DNA of 64,000 nucleotides, from assembly GCA_963169745.1 (NCBI GenBank), contig CAUJCU010000019.1, positions 62,001 to 126,000 on the forward strand, in the 5' to 3' direction. Shown one piece after another: positions 10,275 to 46,655 of the stretch. Position numbers and translations under genes: made by a program. Numbering within the stretch: position 1 is the first letter of the stretch; each line of letters starts with the position of its first letter. The notes beneath the pieces are model-generated. The model did no database searches and was not told where the DNA came from. It saw only the letters and a list, made by a program, of their open reading frames with translations. This stretch comes from Bacteroidota bacterium. Its GTDB lineage: Bacteria; Bacteroidota; Bacteroidia; UBA4408.

Positions 10275-10535
10275 ATGAAAAGAATAAAAAGTCTTTACAG
10301 TTTGGAGTATAAATTACAAGCTATAGAATTAACTAAACAAAGTAAGGAAACTCTAAGAAACGGGACTCGAGGCAGATATTTAGGCCAATCCAAAACAAAA
10401 GATTCGGTTATAAGTAAACCCAAAAATAAAAAAGAGGAAGAAAATATCAGTATAAAAAAGGAACTGTATGAAATAAAATTAGAGCGTGATACATTAAAAA
10501 AGGCACTTGACATCTTCGCCAAGAGCGACAGGTGA
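10275..10535 (+). pseudogene. IS3-type transposase OrfA remnant
   Basis: The 86-residue reading frame keeps the two ends of an IS3-family OrfA: an N-terminal start similar to YSLEYKLQAIEL, and the C-terminal leucine-zipper segment with KLERDTLKKALDIFAK. The helix-turn-helix that should lie between them is replaced by an unrelated basic stretch, so the DNA-binding region has been deleted or scrambled. Its stop overlaps the following OrfB-like frame by four bases, which is the usual IS3 arrangement allowing -1 frameshifting. I treat it as an inactive relic. No terminal inverted repeats could be assigned. Confidence 0.75.
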
Positions 10536-10732
10536 GATTTAGCTTTATCCTAAAACATAAAGACGAATTTCCTGTTGAGAAGATGTGTAAAGTATTAAAA
10601 GCGAGCACGAGTGACTTTTATACATGGATTCATAAAATACTGAGTAAACGAAAAAATAAGAAGAATTGTATTAACACAAGAAAAAAGAGTATTGAAAAGA
10701 AGAGAAAAACAACTCAAAAAATTTTAAAGTGA
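10532..10732 (+). pseudogene. IS3-type transposase OrfB N-terminal fragment
   Basis: Only the N-terminal HTH_21-like part of an IS3 OrfB is recognisable (FILKHKDEFPVEKMCKVLK, then ASTSDFYTW). After about 40 residues the sequence becomes a lysine-rich run without homology, and the integrase catalytic DDE domain is absent; a functional OrfB is near 280 residues. It begins with GTG overlapping the OrfA-like stop. This is a truncated, non-functional fragment. Confidence 0.75.
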
Positions 10733-11054: not shown

Positions 11055-12548
11055 TTACTCTACGACCATTTTTCCTAAGTAACGTTGCACGCCAAACTCC
11101 ATGCTAAGTGCATACATGCCACTGCTTAATTTACCTTGCAAGTTAATGTTTTTAATGTAGGTATATGGCGAAACATACTCTTTATAAACTTCTTTACCAT
11201 TAACATCATACACATGCAACATACCGCTAATTTCTTGCACAGGAAACTCTATGCTTATATTGCCTTGGCTGGGGTTAGGGGCAATTTTTAATTGTTGATT
11301 TTTAATTGTTATTTCTTCATTGCCAATGCCAAGCGTATCACAAATACTGCCATGCTCTTGCATTAGGTTTAGATTTACGTAGGTGGGCACTGTAGAATAA
11401 TACACAGTAGGGCATTGTATTTGGTTTTGCACAAAATTACAGGCTTGGCCTGGCATATCTGGGTTGTTAATGACACAAAGCATAACTCCACTAAAGTTTT
11501 GAACATAAATTTTGCCATCGGCAGCTAAGTAATGGAATGCCCAACTTGGGTGCCAACCTGTAGCAGGATCATGAAAGGTAGTATCTAAGGTAGCAATTAA
11601 GGTTTGTGTATTCATTACATCAGGGTCTTGTATATCAAATTGCCATAGTTTTTCATAATAACTAATGTATAAAAACCGACTGTTGGGGCTAAAAGATAAG
11701 CCACCAGCAGTTAAATTGATAATATATTTATAACGCATATTGCTTAAAAGACCAGTACATCTATCAAAATCGTAAATTCTTAGCTGATAATCACTATTAA
11801 AACCTGCCATAGTTTTTCCATCAGGTGAAAAAGCACCTTGACCACCAAATTGACTTATTGGCCCGCCTATGGATTGAATTTGTTTTAACTCTATGCCAGT
11901 AGGAGTAAGTAAAAAAGTAAAAAAGTCATTCAAATAATTTCTTTTTACCAATATCCACCAATCTCTTCCATTGGCATGGCGGTTTACCATCAATGCTGCA
12001 ATATTAAAAGTATCATGAGCCACCAATTGGTTTTTAAGCATTACCAATCCTTGGCCATTATTGCCACTTGGGTCAATTAAGGAGTAATAAATATTTTGAG
12101 CATGGTTTGAGGTGGTAACAACATGGTCCATGTGTATCATGGCCATTAAGTTACTTGAACCGGGGTAAGGTAATAAAACTGCACCAGAAGATACTGGGTA
12201 ACCAATCCATGCCCAGGTGTTATAGGTACCACCAGGACTTAATCCTGAGCCATTCATAAGCGTGTCATGATTTTTATTCGCCAAAGTATAGCCATTGGTA
12301 TAAACAAAATACTCATTATTGGGTGTACGCAATCCGCTAAAGGTTCCACGAATAAAAACCTGATTCCCAGAATCCTTATAATGTGTTTCTGAATTGTTGT
12401 CAAAAATAAAATGTGTCATGCCTCTATAAGCCCAAGTAGTGTCGTTGGGCCATGAGCCCCACATCCATTCATTGTTTTTCCATTGGGAAAAAACTGCTGT
12501 TGAGTTTAAACCTAAACCCAACAGCAGTAGTATAAACTTTAATTTCAT
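11055..12548 (-). CDS. Secreted WD40/propeller-like protein with T9SS sorting domain
   Basis: Exported protein of 497 residues. The signal peptide MKLKFILLLLGLGLNSTAVF ends at FSQ. The middle reads like the blades of a beta-propeller: GAFSPDGKTMAGFNSDYQLRIYD, GLSFSPNSRFLYISYYEKLWQFD and LAADGKIYVQNF are the kind of segments found in Bacteroidota lipoproteins and T9SS proteins annotated as WD40-like. The C-terminal 75 residues are a T9SS type A tail (IAPNPSQGNISIEF, VYDVNGKEV, SSGMYALSME). Its ATG overlaps the stop of the upstream 12545-17092 gene by four bases, so the two are translationally coupled and probably work together on the cell surface. Confidence 0.85.
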   Translation of the reverse strand: MKLKFILLLLGLGLNSTAVFSQWKNNEWMWGSWPNDTTWAYRGMTHFIFDNNSETHYKDSGNQVFIRGTFSGLRTPNNEYFVYTNGYTLANKNHDTLMNGSGLSPGGTYNTWAWIGYPVSSGAVLLPYPGSSNLMAMIHMDHVVTTSNHAQNIYYSLIDPSGNNGQGLVMLKNQLVAHDTFNIAALMVNRHANGRDWWILVKRNYLNDFFTFLLTPTGIELKQIQSIGGPISQFGGQGAFSPDGKTMAGFNSDYQLRIYDFDRCTGLLSNMRYKYIINLTAGGLSFSPNSRFLYISYYEKLWQFDIQDPDVMNTQTLIATLDTTFHDPATGWHPSWAFHYLAADGKIYVQNFSGVMLCVINNPDMPGQACNFVQNQIQCPTVYYSTVPTYVNLNLMQEHGSICDTLGIGNEEITIKNQQLKIAPNPSQGNISIEFPVQEISGMLHVYDVNGKEVYKEYVSPYTYIKNINLQGKLSSGMYALSMEFGVQRYLGKMVVE

Positions 12549-15500
12549 TTAATTACAGTAATTTTTGTACGTTCAGCTCTTTCGTTATTCATCAAAAAAA
12601 CATAGTAAACACCAGCTGGAACTTGGCTTAACTCAAGTTGGGCATTTCTGCTATTGCTATTGATATTTATACTTAACATAAGCCTGCCTTCCATATCGTA
12701 AACATGAACAATTGCAGTCGATTTAAGTTCGTTAAAGCTTAAATTTAGGCTATTTTGAGCAGGTACAGGAAATGCTTTGAAATAAGTTGCTTCTGTAACA
12801 TTGTTATTTATTTTTGGTGCAAAAGACGCTAAGCTCTCGCGGGCATAGCCTTCATTACTGCAAAAGGCACTGTCTTGATACAATACAGAATCAACCAATA
12901 AGGCATACATATCTCTGGCTTGAAATACGGCTGGGCCTGCGGCTAATGGGCATAAATGCGCAATATAGGCAATCATAGCAGAATCTTCGTAACTGATATA
13001 TTCATAGTCACTATCGCGCAAAGCAAAATAAATTTTATTTACCGTTTTAAGTACTTGCTCATTGGCATTGCGTGGTTCTATCTCGCTATTTAGGTTGTTG
13101 GCAATTGACAAATTAGCTTTGTGATACCCATTTAAAGTGTAACTCAAATCTTCGTTTGCTTGCTTTAATGACTCATATTGTGCCAAAACTGTTATTTTTT
13201 GCATGAGTATAAGGCTGTCATTAGCCAAAGAGTCGGTTAATTCACTATTCAGTGCCAAGTAATTCATTTCTAAAATTGACAATAGGCTGTCATTGGCGGT
13301 AATGGCATGTGAAAACAAATTTCTTTGTGCCTCAAAAGCATTATTGTTTCTACTAATTTCGTCAATATCACGGAGCACCTGTGCATCGGGCGAATAGTAA
13401 AAATATTGAAGCGAATCATCATCATTTAAAAGAATGCTATCGTTAGTTAATATTTTCACTAAAGTGTTTTGAGCCATCCAAAGTGTTTGGGCAGGATAAC
13501 CATTGGTAGTTAAACTACGGTTGGCAATGGAGCGGTAAAAATCTTTATTTCCAATGGAAGAAGCCATTCTGCCTGCACAATTTTGAATAAGGCAAGGCGC
13601 ATTGTAAGTCATTAACCCGTTAGGGTCAAACCAATTTGGTGGAAAAATAAGTTGTGGGTCAGGGTAATTGATAGCAGGCTGGTTGGGATTAACATAATAT
13701 ATGCTGGTTTGCACATTCGAAGTTGATGCGGTATTATATGCTTTAAAGGTATTGGTTCCTAACCATCTGTTTCCTTCTGTATCATCATTTAAAGGGTCGG
13801 CAGGTTGCGGGCCGGTTACACCAGAGTTATCATAGTATAAAGCTATATCATTGCTACCAAAATTATTAGCTCTAATGGTCGCATTATTGTTTACACCCGC
13901 TACTTGTAAACCTATTCTGGAAACACCTGTGGTATTGCAATTTATCATAGCCTCATCGCTTAATTCCAACAACAAATCAATGCCCAAATTAGGGGAGCCG
14001 TTAAAACCAGGCGCCCAGTTAACAGTATTTTGCGATAGTGTATTCTTTTCGCAAGCTAAACTGCTGATTCCATTTAGTGAATACCAAGTCATAAAAGGGT
14101 TAGTAATGGTCCTTCTCACGGTATTGCAATTTACCAAGGAGCCCTTCAATGAACTTGTTTGAATACCCGCATTATAACTATTTGCAATAGTTACAATATT
14201 GTTACTAATACGTGTATTACCAAAATTTCCGCTTGTAGCGGCAGTTACATTAATACCAAAGTAGCCCATTAAAAAATTCATATTTATTTGGTTATAGGCC
14301 ACCACAATATTATTAGCAAACTCAGCATTATTTATTTCAATACCATTGAGCCAAGCATTAATACGATTAGATTGTAAATTGTAACTGCACATGATGGAGT
14401 TTTGTGCGATAATTCCATTTGCCACATTGCTCATTCTAATGTTATTGGCAACAATTGAATTTCTGAAAGTTTTAATACCATATTTACACTTTTCGAATTC
14501 ATTACCAGAATAACCCGGAATCGGTTCAACACTTAAAGTTTTAGGCGTGCCTATACTTCTGGCATATATGCCTGAACCCTCGGGTTGTAAACCAATTAAT
14601 GTGCCCGCAGGAGAAGGGTTTAAATGTGTTAAATCCTTAAACCAAGAATTTACAACTTTTACATTTGAATTAAATATATTAATTCCACAATTAATATTTT
14701 CGAAACGATTGCTAATTGTTGCAGCTCCAAAGTTAGCAAGGGCTGCTGGCACTGCCCCAATTTGCACATAATTTACATTATGTACTTTTATTCCAGCCTC
14801 AGACCATGTAGGATGGAAAAACATATTGGTGTAAGCAGGTTTAAGTTGATTAATGCATCTGAATATGTTTGAATAATCCACTCCCGATATTTGACCTCCA
14901 TTTAAGCCACCCATGAAAATTCCATATAAATTATTTTCAAAGACATTTGTATTGATATTGTAAATTGATCCGTTTTGCAAATGGACCGCATTTTCGGCAT
15001 CGGCAAGGTAACACCCATTCAAAAATAAGTTATCATTATTTGTTATTCCTTTCCACATACTATTGCATGCAGTAAGCGAGCAGTTTTTCAATTCTAGATA
15101 TCCATTATTGATAATATTTGAGCCATCAAAACAGACAAAGTTTATAGGAGAAACATTGGGCCCAGTATTACTGATTTTTAAATTAGTAATATTATCAATG
15201 ATTAATGTACCAGCTAATACAAAATTAATATCATTTGGTGCTTGATAACTAGTAATTTGAAACGTAGCAGTTGAATTGACATTGGATATCTGCGTGATAT
15301 TATTTGGGTAAAAATTTAACAGATGATCTTTTAATTGTGAACTAGTCATTCCATCCAAAATAATTACTGTGTTGCTACTATAACCACAAGAAATTGTATT
15401 TATTTCAATATCGATTGATGAGCTGCAACCATTGGAATCAAGCCCCACAACTGTATAGGTTGTATTTTGCATTAGATTGGGTGTAATGTAGGTGTCGGCA

Positions 15501-17092
15501 GTACTTACAATATTATTTGTAATATCATACCAAGTGTAGGTTAATGCTCCGCTTGCATTTAGGGTGGTATTAGCTCCTGTAATAATATTAGTATTCCCAT
15601 TAATTGTAATTGATGGGCCACCTACAGTTATGTTTACATAAGATGGATCAGAAATTTGTGTAGTTCCATCTTCCATTTGAATTGAAACAGTTAACGAAAC
15701 AGTTGTATTGGAATTTCCAATAAATGTTGGATGATAAAGATGATTATCGTCAAAAAGATTTGCTGGTGACCATTCATAAGTACCATTTGGAAAAGGACAT
15801 GTATTGCCTCCTATTTCAGTACCAGGACAAACGGTAATGTTGGGATCTCCTGCATCAGCGAAAAATTCTTTAACAACAATGTTGTCAATCAAATAATATA
15901 CAGCACCTCCAAATTGACTACATAAAGGGAAAGATGTTGAACTAGGAAATTCAATTACGGGACTCAATCTTAAATTTCCAATAAATAAATATTCTTCACC
16001 TCCATAGGTTGATTGATAAATAGTATTAAAACGACTCCAATTTAGATTTGGGTCATGATCAAATCCTTCTATACTAAGTGTTACATTTGTGGTGTTATTA
16101 TAATTATTTTGTATAAAATTTGTATCATCTGTTAAATCAAAATCAATTTTACTCCCATAATAAAGTCTTCTTGGTTTTGCTATGTCAACTTCAAAAAAGT
16201 ATTTTCTTCCCTGAATTAGTGCAGTATTCAATTTTCCTTTCAGAATTTCAGAAGAATATGTTGACGAGCCTCCATTTGCGCCATTATCACCACATAGAAG
16301 AGCAGAGTATGATTCACTGTTATTATAAAAATTACTTCCTTGCGCAGGATATCCACATGATACAGGTGTATTGATAAGATTTGGATTAAGTCCATACGTA
16401 TTGCAAATATTTTGGGGTCCTATTTGGTAACATCCACCATTAAACCAAGGACTTATATAATCTGGTGAATGTAATGGTTCGATCCAGTTACAAACATAAT
16501 TCGAAAATATATCACCCAAATCTTGGAAATTAGTAAAGTTTAAAGTTGGTGGATTAAATTCTTCAAAACTTCCATTTAATAAAAGATTATTACATTCAGT
16601 ACTTGCTGTACAATTTGAACCTAAAAAAACAGAAATATTGTTTAACTTAATTTTTAAATTAAATCCATTTTGATAAGTAATGCTGTCCGAAATTTTGGCA
16701 ATACTAATAATCAATAAAACAGTATCTTCATAACTTATTTGTGTTACGCCTTTTATTTCTTCAATGCGCTTATAATTAATATTTTGTGAAATGATATCAG
16801 CATTAAAACAAGTATTACTTACCACCCTCCAATCGCTGATGTAATTATTAAATGCATTTGAATCAAGTTCAAAATTTAGACCTAGATTGTTTGAAAAATT
16901 TATCACTTGATAATAATTTATGGTGTCAGAATAAGTAATATTGTATGTTTGATTAAAATTACCATCAGACATATCAATTACATAAGGATTACTACAACTA
17001 TTGCCTGTTTGTGCCATTAAATAATTGCTTGAAATGCCACTATAAATAATTAATAAAAGTTGTAAACATCGCCATAGCAGTTTACATAGCAC
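12545..17092 (-). CDS. Giant secreted beta-helix protein with T9SS sorting domain
   Basis: A 1515-residue predicted cell-surface protein. Order of parts: hydrophobic signal segment ending at LMAQ (about residue 28); a beta-sandwich region (about 30-420); PKD/Ig-like segments (about 425-570, with VCPGTEIGGN and TYTWYDI); a long right-handed beta-helix of Asn/Gly-rich rungs (about 600-1150); a helical stretch rich in LNDDDSL and QRNLF (about 1200-1400); and a T9SS tail (FPVPAQNSLNLSF, VYDMEGRLM, VPAGVYYVFL). No in-frame ATG precedes the signal peptide. The first usable start is a GTG at 17092 on the edge of a strong palindrome. An ATG at 17135 is out of frame by one dinucleotide repeat unit, which suggests repeat-controlled expression (see findings). 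Followed by the overlapping 11055-12548 gene. Confidence 0.8.
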   Translation of the reverse strand: MLCKLLWRCLQLLLIIYSGISSNYLMAQTGNSCSNPYVIDMSDGNFNQTYNITYSDTINYYQVINFSNNLGLNFELDSNAFNNYISDWRVVSNTCFNADIISQNINYKRIEEIKGVTQISYEDTVLLIISIAKISDSITYQNGFNLKIKLNNISVFLGSNCTASTECNNLLLNGSFEEFNPPTLNFTNFQDLGDIFSNYVCNWIEPLHSPDYISPWFNGGCYQIGPQNICNTYGLNPNLINTPVSCGYPAQGSNFYNNSESYSALLCGDNGANGGSSTYSSEILKGKLNTALIQGRKYFFEVDIAKPRRLYYGSKIDFDLTDDTNFIQNNYNNTTNVTLSIEGFDHDPNLNWSRFNTIYQSTYGGEEYLFIGNLRLSPVIEFPSSTSFPLCSQFGGAVYYLIDNIVVKEFFADAGDPNITVCPGTEIGGNTCPFPNGTYEWSPANLFDDNHLYHPTFIGNSNTTVSLTVSIQMEDGTTQISDPSYVNITVGGPSITINGNTNIITGANTTLNASGALTYTWYDITNNIVSTADTYITPNLMQNTTYTVVGLDSNGCSSSIDIEINTISCGYSSNTVIILDGMTSSQLKDHLLNFYPNNITQISNVNSTATFQITSYQAPNDINFVLAGTLIIDNITNLKISNTGPNVSPINFVCFDGSNIINNGYLELKNCSLTACNSMWKGITNNDNLFLNGCYLADAENAVHLQNGSIYNINTNVFENNLYGIFMGGLNGGQISGVDYSNIFRCINQLKPAYTNMFFHPTWSEAGIKVHNVNYVQIGAVPAALANFGAATISNRFENINCGINIFNSNVKVVNSWFKDLTHLNPSPAGTLIGLQPEGSGIYARSIGTPKTLSVEPIPGYSGNEFEKCKYGIKTFRNSIVANNIRMSNVANGIIAQNSIMCSYNLQSNRINAWLNGIEINNAEFANNIVVAYNQINMNFLMGYFGINVTAATSGNFGNTRISNNIVTIANSYNAGIQTSSLKGSLVNCNTVRRTITNPFMTWYSLNGISSLACEKNTLSQNTVNWAPGFNGSPNLGIDLLLELSDEAMINCNTTGVSRIGLQVAGVNNNATIRANNFGSNDIALYYDNSGVTGPQPADPLNDDTEGNRWLGTNTFKAYNTASTSNVQTSIYYVNPNQPAINYPDPQLIFPPNWFDPNGLMTYNAPCLIQNCAGRMASSIGNKDFYRSIANRSLTTNGYPAQTLWMAQNTLVKILTNDSILLNDDDSLQYFYYSPDAQVLRDIDEISRNNNAFEAQRNLFSHAITANDSLLSILEMNYLALNSELTDSLANDSLILMQKITVLAQYESLKQANEDLSYTLNGYHKANLSIANNLNSEIEPRNANEQVLKTVNKIYFALRDSDYEYISYEDSAMIAYIAHLCPLAAGPAVFQARDMYALLVDSVLYQDSAFCSNEGYARESLASFAPKINNNVTEATYFKAFPVPAQNSLNLSFNELKSTAIVHVYDMEGRLMLSININSNSRNAQLELSQVPAGVYYVFLMNNERAERTKITVIK

Positions 17093-17139
17093 CCAATGCT
17101 CTCTCTCTCTCTATATATATATATAGAGAGAGCATTGGG
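17092..17139. repeat. Palindrome with (CT)7(AT)6(AG)4 dinucleotide tracts at a T9SS gene start
   Basis: The arms CCCAATG-CT... and ...AG-CATTGGG pair perfectly for at least 15 bp. The interior consists of seven CT, six AT and four AG units (plus strand), so the sequence can fold into one long hairpin. On the minus strand it contains an ATG (17135-17133) and the seven-unit AG tract immediately before the presumed GTG start (17092) of the 1515-residue surface protein. This is a candidate contingency locus or a structured leader. Confidence 0.75.
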
Positions 17140-18145
17140 CTTGAGAAGCTTTGTGTTTCGGGGCTTTTGCGTTGTTGTAGCCCTTTAAAGGTTAATGAAT
17201 TTGAACTCATAACTTAAAGTATTTAGTAAGGTAATATTTAGTAAATATATAACTTTATTTATAACAACCAACTTAGCAAGCTGTTAAGATTGTCCTATTA
17301 TTAATAATTAATAGACTATAAACCGAGTAAAATTAAACAATCATAACTAATTTGGACATGTTGTGAAACAATAAATGTTACATCCGTCACGTCAAAGATT
17401 ATTAACTAGATTTTAATTCTAATCTTGCTGCACTTATAGTCAATCAATATATGCCAGTTGTTTATGCCAAAATCATTGGTACAGATAAATCAGCGTTAGA
17501 TAACTTACATGAATAATTTTTGCAATCAAAAGAACTATCACAGTAAGGAACAGAAGCTAAAATTATTGCAATTAATAGATTTTACAGAAACCTAATTTCA
17601 TGCTTCTTGATAAACATGAAATTTATTGAACAAATGGAAAAAAAACAATTCATGTTCAACCAAGTATTAATATAGTTATAGATGCAGCAGGTATAAAAGA
17701 TTACATAATAGCAGAAAGAAAAAACAAATACGCCAATACAAGATAACATAGTCGTAATAGAACAAAATGGCATCCTCGCAATGTCAGACTAAAACAGATA
17801 ATATCAAATTTTACAAGTAGTTGTGAATACATACAATTGTAAAATTGGTAAAGAACCTTACACTTTAAAACTCATATAGAATATTGCAATTAAGATAGGG
17901 ATAGTCAGTACGCTAGCGCAACCTTTTTAATTAACGCTAATTTGCCCATGCAAATTGCAAGCAATTTTTATTTTTTTTCAGTACTAATTCCAATAAAACA
18001 AAAATAATTTTACATTTGTGATAAGAGGATTGGGTTTTTGAAGTTTACCCTCTAAGGTAATTAGAGTTACATAATAATTTCTCTTTTTTTTATACTTTTA
18101 AACAATTTAGGACGCTATTGGTAAAAAACTGTAATTGATTTTTTT
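17140..18145. other. Long intergenic region with possible degenerate gene
   Basis: About 1 kb without an intact reading frame. Between about 17451 and 17880 several coding-like pieces occur on the plus strand in shifting frames and interrupted by stops: MPVVYAKIIGTDKSALDNLH, then PSINIVIDAAGIKDYIIAER, then NIVVIEQNGILAMSD. These look like a decayed gene rather than random sequence, but I recognise no family. The rest is AT-rich sequence with no supported feature until the rpmH promoter. Confidence 0.35.
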
Positions 18146-46617: not shown

Positions 46618-46655
46618 ATAAATTATTCACCGCAAATTTGCGGTGAATAATTTAT
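46618..46655. promoter_or_regulatory. 38-bp perfect palindrome, probable operator of the Fic gene
   Basis: Nineteen-base arms (core CGCAAATTTGCG, flanks ATAAATTATTCAC and its complement) with no mismatch and no spacer. It contains a TTTG (46637-46640) and its last base is the first base of the -7 box, so a bound dimer would block RNA polymerase. The Fic protein's own C-terminal winged-helix-like domain is an obvious candidate ligand. Confidence 0.75.

Follow-up and report, generated by a model that had tools for sequence, protein, structure and literature searches.

The gene for a giant secreted T9SS surface protein of an uncultured Bacteroidia bacterium (genome of 2.99 Mb, about 3.0 Mb) carries, exactly between a conserved start and the signal peptide, a unique palindrome that includes the only long AG tract of the genome. 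A slipped-strand contingency switch, sequenced out of frame, is the best explanation of this arrangement, and we give it roughly an even chance of being correct. The weight of the case lies in the conserved start, in the rarity and position of the tract, and in the 1515 open codons behind it. Frame arithmetic alone is weak, because one or two units correct any out-of-frame dinucleotide tract. Coordinates are positions in the window, the whole stretch of 64,000 nucleotides that was analysed, and the features of the locus are collected in Table 1.

Table 1. Features of the two-gene locus, in window positions
Feature	Position	Strand	Basis or remark
Predicted promoter: TTG (17271-17269), 19 nt, TATATTTA (17249-17242)	17242-17271	minus	near Bacteroidetes -33/-7 consensus
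Probable true start (ATG 17210) with the conserved leader of 25 codons, MSSNSLTFKGLQQRKSPETQSFSSP	17136-17210	minus	ATG and leader have homologs in the C2 paralog and the G003 ortholog
Palindrome CCCAATGC(TC)...GCATTGGG containing dinucleotide tracts; 48 nt	17092-17139	minus	unique among 395 genomes
(AG)7 tract; sole tract whose unit count can open the frame (5, 8, 11)	17099-17112	minus	frame test
42-codon ORF encoded by the present 7-unit allele	17082-17210	minus	stop TAA 17084-17082
Gene 1: 1515-aa T9SS protein; signal peptide, Ig_7 domain, C-terminal sorting domain	12545-17092	minus	ORF and profiles
Terminator-like 16-pair hairpin then T6, within gene 2 signal-peptide codons	12493-12528	minus	hairpin search
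Gene 2: 497-aa T9SS protein; start overlaps gene 1 stop	11055-12548	minus	ORF and profiles

The palindrome and the start of gene 1

On the minus strand an ATG (17135-17133) is followed by (CT)4 (17132-17125), (AT)6 (17124-17113), (AG)7 (17112-17099) and CATTGGG, which ends at 17092, exactly as given in the preliminary description of this DNA; TCAAGCCCA precedes the ATG and CATTGGGTGCTATGTAA follows the AG tract. The palindrome consists of two 24-nt arms, 88% complementary and separated by a spacer of 0 nt. Its RNA fold has an energy of -28.5 kcal/mol, and z was -5.07 for the RNA fold of the 141 nt, and -6.15 for the DNA fold of the 61 nt, around it. Shuffled windows held no near match to the layout of palindrome and tracts, and a loose CT-AT-AG palindrome pattern was found in 0 of 394 other Bacteroidia genomes. 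Apart from (AG)7 the genome has no AG tract of 6 units or more, and the remnants of gene 1 in two genomes of the same genus, G003 and G002, both lack the tract. A (CT)9 tract, apparently intergenic, occurs in a genome of the same family (G007, L110 512-529). A second palindrome of the window (46618-46655), perfect and with 19-bp arms (ATAAATTATTCACCGCAAA/TTTGCGGTGAATAATTTAT), resides directly upstream of a gene for a Fic-domain-like product (HPFxxGNGR motif), and is perhaps an operator serving autoregulation.

Searching the genome with the DNA upstream of gene 1 retrieved one strong second place, on contig C2, 79% identical from 17271 to 17138, where identity stops at the edge of the palindrome. 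The C2 copy belongs to a gene for a 1527-aa T9SS protein (MIPNSLNIKGLQKRKSREAQ...), of which it holds the putative promoter and the first codons; the frame of this gene is uninterrupted through the signal peptide. The ortholog in G003 starts with MSSNSLQFKGLQR, and its DNA is 86% identical over 85 nt. Paralog, ortholog and window share the N-terminus MxxNSLxxKGLQ, and in all three loci an in-frame stop is found one codon before the ATG. Gene 1 probably starts at this conserved ATG 17210, and not at ATG 17135 as previously proposed; the frame of the latter extends upstream to ATG 17210, which had been missed. The predicted promoter, identified with a published Bacteroidetes consensus (PMC7366714), has aligned promoter-like elements in the C2 paralog, and its -7 element resembles one in G003.

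Start contexts were scored with a position matrix built on 30 other genes of the window. ATG 17210 and the G003 ATG each scored above 73% of the 30 genes, and the C2 ATG above all of them. Scores below all 30 genes were obtained for ATG 17135, which is made by the palindrome arm and was discarded as a start, for GTG 17092, and for a TTG found at the aligned place of the C2 paralog. In Flavobacterium johnsoniae initiation is aided by certain upstream bases, adenine at -3 included, and by low structure (PMC6847099). In a predicted fold of 276 nt the mean unpaired fraction is 0.40 around ATG 17210, which is itself paired, against 0.23 around GTG 17092. The N-terminus of the 1515-aa annotation, which begins at GTG 17092, is probably wrong, and the true start of genes of this kind gets missed when the tract is out of frame.

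The leader is not a family common to many genes: in this genome it is found only in the C2 paralog. A search with the leader DNA pattern matched solely the G003 record (a Bacteroidia MAG, JALRAS010000125), and a protein scan of the genome contig collection detected no wider homologs. Identity between window and paralog is 82.5% for the leader DNA, 65.6% for the promoter stretch and 27-29% for the proteins. In the 20 codons after the start, differences are spread over the three codon positions (4, 4 and 3), and 8 codons differ non-synonymously and 2 synonymously, with no synonymous excess. Conservation of the leader appears DNA-like or recent, because DNA identity far exceeds protein identity and differences are even over codon positions.

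Reading frame and the candidate switch

By varying the number of AG units in silico, the frame into the 1515-aa protein was open with 5, 8 or 11 units and met a stop with 4, 6, 7, 9 or 10, and no alteration in the number of CT or AT units opened it. From ATG 17135, the 7 units present allow 17 codons and then a stop (...ERERALGAM*). The preliminary description had stated this, along with the open frames at 5 or 8 units, and both statements were reproduced; it was right too that GTG 17092 is the only ATG, GTG or TTG start before the signal peptide in the present frame. Read from ATG 17210, the frame spans 42 codons at 7 units, 52 at 6 and 54 at 9, and products of 1553, 1555 and 1557 aa are encoded at 5, 8 and 11 units, respectively. 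The 7-unit stop lies 8 nt beyond the first base of GTG 17092, the 6- or 9-unit stop 40 nt beyond GTG 17092.

The palindrome replaces a coding stretch of nearly equal length in the C2 paralog, which has neither palindrome nor tandem repeat there. At 8 units the stretch from the start through the signal peptide has 67 residues, against 68 in the paralog, and the mature junction (...MAQ/TGNSC), counted from the ATG, is at most one residue off that of the paralog (...YSQ/VGSSC). Judged by the paralog, the sequenced allele is one AG unit away from the homologous arrangement.

From the sequence we infer promoter, use of ATG 17210, slippage and phenotype as follows. The transcript would start about 28 nt before ATG 17210, and initiation at this codon would produce the 25-residue leader common to the paralog, joined to the signal peptide by the (AG)n tract. 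When n is 5, 8 or 11, ATG 17210, the signal peptide and the complete T9SS protein would share a single frame (1555 aa at n = 8). The sequenced allele (n = 7) would allow 42 codons before a stop, an off or low state; alleles with n = 6 or 9 would stop 40 nt beyond the GTG, an off state. Replication slippage on the AG tract, perhaps aided by the palindrome, would shift cells between states.

Repeat contingency loci are recognized by a pure short-unit repeat in or just before a coding sequence, whose unit count sets the frame of an otherwise intact gene, by a product facing the surface or the environment, and also by tract lengths that vary among clones or strains and by reversible switching far faster than ordinary mutation. 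A repair background permissive for dinucleotide slippage is a supporting trait, and no strict requirement. Here (AG)7 lies between start and signal peptide, its unit count sets the frame of gene 1 in silico, and the product carries a T9SS C-terminal sorting domain (TIGR04183 and PF18962, both above cut-off). Homologs strengthen the contingency layout of the preliminary description: they place a conserved coding start ahead of the tract, and the conserved signal peptide is one AG unit out of register with it. The start at 17135, however, has to be abandoned. The genome has mutS1 and mutL, whose activity would slow dinucleotide slippage, and this counts against a switch.

Alternative explanations

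The absence of any switch is possible, though we consider it doubtful. The shift may be a one-off frameshift in a gene under loss, or a one-unit AG miscall in a palindrome hard to sequence, in which case the gene would simply be in frame from ATG 17210. The strength of the palindrome and the presence of mismatch repair genes agree with such a reading, and the out-of-frame allele is known from one genome only. Gene 1 is eroded in the neighbour genomes G003 and G002. In the G003 ortholog (L107 1507-2109) the leader ATG continues in frame into the last ~190 residues of the giant protein, so that about 1300 codons are gone, and the start and the sorting domain are retained; in G002 just a C-terminal piece is left. 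Since these orthologs lack most of gene 1, the gene may be dispensable. Yet 1515 codons, ending in a sorting domain, stay open past the shift. The frame is thus either used or recently lost, and decay would have to be very recent. Moreover, the shift sits in the only long AG tract of the genome, where a contingency tract is expected.

The preliminary description had offered a structured leader hiding the start as an alternative to phase variation, and this survives, as a conceivable option, in the form of coupled translation. Ribosomes translating the 42-codon ORF from ATG 17210 would open up the hairpin, terminate at TAA 17084-17082 and then start anew at GTG 17092; the hairpin would block independent starts, the signal peptide would be short, and the 7-unit allele would be the normal expressed state. 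The stop falls only 8 nt beyond the GTG, which lies at the edge of the stem, with low openness and a poor context, as coupling would have it; the residues encoded from the GTG form a plausible signal peptide, and the aligned position in the C2 paralog is taken by an in-frame TTG. The contexts of both codons, though, are worse than those of every gene tested, and C2 needs no overlapping ORF, since its long frame is open. On the whole we hold coupled translation to be unlikely.

Re-initiation at the GTG is conceivable at 7 units and unlikely at 6 or 9, because the stop lies 8 nt beyond the GTG in one case and 40 nt in the other. Slippage and coupling could be combined in a three-state switch, which seems to us rather improbable: a long leader-bearing pre-protein would be made at 5, 8 or 11 units, a short one at 4, 7 or 10 by hairpin-gated re-initiation at GTG 17092, and none at 6 or 9. 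If true, a T9SS slipped-strand switch in Bacteroidota would use both reading frame and RNA structure.

Last, the near-perfect palindrome folds strongly as DNA and RNA and might be a structural element (terminator, regulator site, cruciform or mobile repeat) with an incidental effect on the frame, but this is very improbable, as the next bases are TGCTATG, with no T run and no terminator call, the palindrome is found only once, in this genome as in the set of 395, and hence is not a repeat family, no Rfam family matched, and the paralog carries an equally long coding stretch with no palindrome there.

Known systems and the two-gene module

Phase variation in Bacteroidota is known mainly as DNA inversion. 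Text searches of the open-access literature turned up no report of slipped-strand switching for a T9SS protein, which is weak evidence of absence. Should the switch prove real, the locus would offer a single, clear example that is easy to assay. The nearest known parallels are sabA and oipA of Helicobacter pylori, outer membrane protein genes with CT repeats. Clones of one strain carry 6, 7 or 8 CT units in sabA (PMC2715451), a range that includes the seven units found here, and oipA has CT repeats in the signal-peptide region (PMC10564699). In these genes, as in gene 1, a dinucleotide tract of ~6-9 units resides in the 5' coding or signal-peptide region, and the count leads to a full-length product or an early stop. 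Protein family and phylum are different, and the tract here is placed in a palindrome, between leader and signal peptide; Pfam detected in the gene 1 protein only Por_Secre_tail, Ig_7 and a weak DUF3244 match, and no homology to Helicobacter Hop porins. To our knowledge H. pylori lacks a mutS1/mutL mismatch-repair system, whereas these genes are present here; and sabA varies among clones, whereas the tract is known here from the sequence of one genome.

In the contingency loci of Haemophilus influenzae and Neisseria the repeat number switches the frame, with several states per locus; tracts are mostly tetranucleotide or homopolymeric and loci are many, as opposed to the single AG tract of the genome studied here. 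In Bacteroides, of the same phylum, invertible promoters give random switching of surface loci, and a recombinase inverts a segment between separated inverted repeats. The palindrome arms are directly adjacent (0 nt apart) and enclose nothing that could be inverted, and an invertible promoter was discarded. Autotransporters may have extended signal peptides (ESPR), in which a conserved additional segment at the N-terminus precedes a signal peptide of the usual kind. The leader may resemble them in this respect; it is present in just three loci and is conserved at the DNA level.

The module made by genes 1 and 2 is found also in C2, and whole or in part in G003, G002 and G007. The preliminary description had the two genes controlled together, which is uncertain: the terminator-like hairpin at their junction may partly separate the expression of gene 2 from that of gene 1. 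Hairpins unrelated in sequence occupy this junction in other modules, with stems of 14 bp in G003, 16-17 bp in C2 and 14 bp, plus a T run, in one G007 module; the remaining related modules examined have none. Besides the window hairpin, coordinates are L026 12640-12679, L107 1459-1491 (G003) and L100 3408-3445; in the window and G003 the hairpin is inside the gene 2 signal-peptide codons. Such hairpins are not a general trait of T9SS gene starts, as only three of 366 genes had a stem scoring at least 12 near the start, and two of the three belong to these modules.

Short ORFs which by eye resemble IS3-type transposase remnants lie at 10275-10732, right beside the point where the T9SS operon ends. 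A serine recombinase fragment missing the N-terminal catalytic part (L026 6499-7524), a short way upstream of the C2 paralogous module, runs into a tRNA-Ala gene, and is possibly the remnant of a genomic island.
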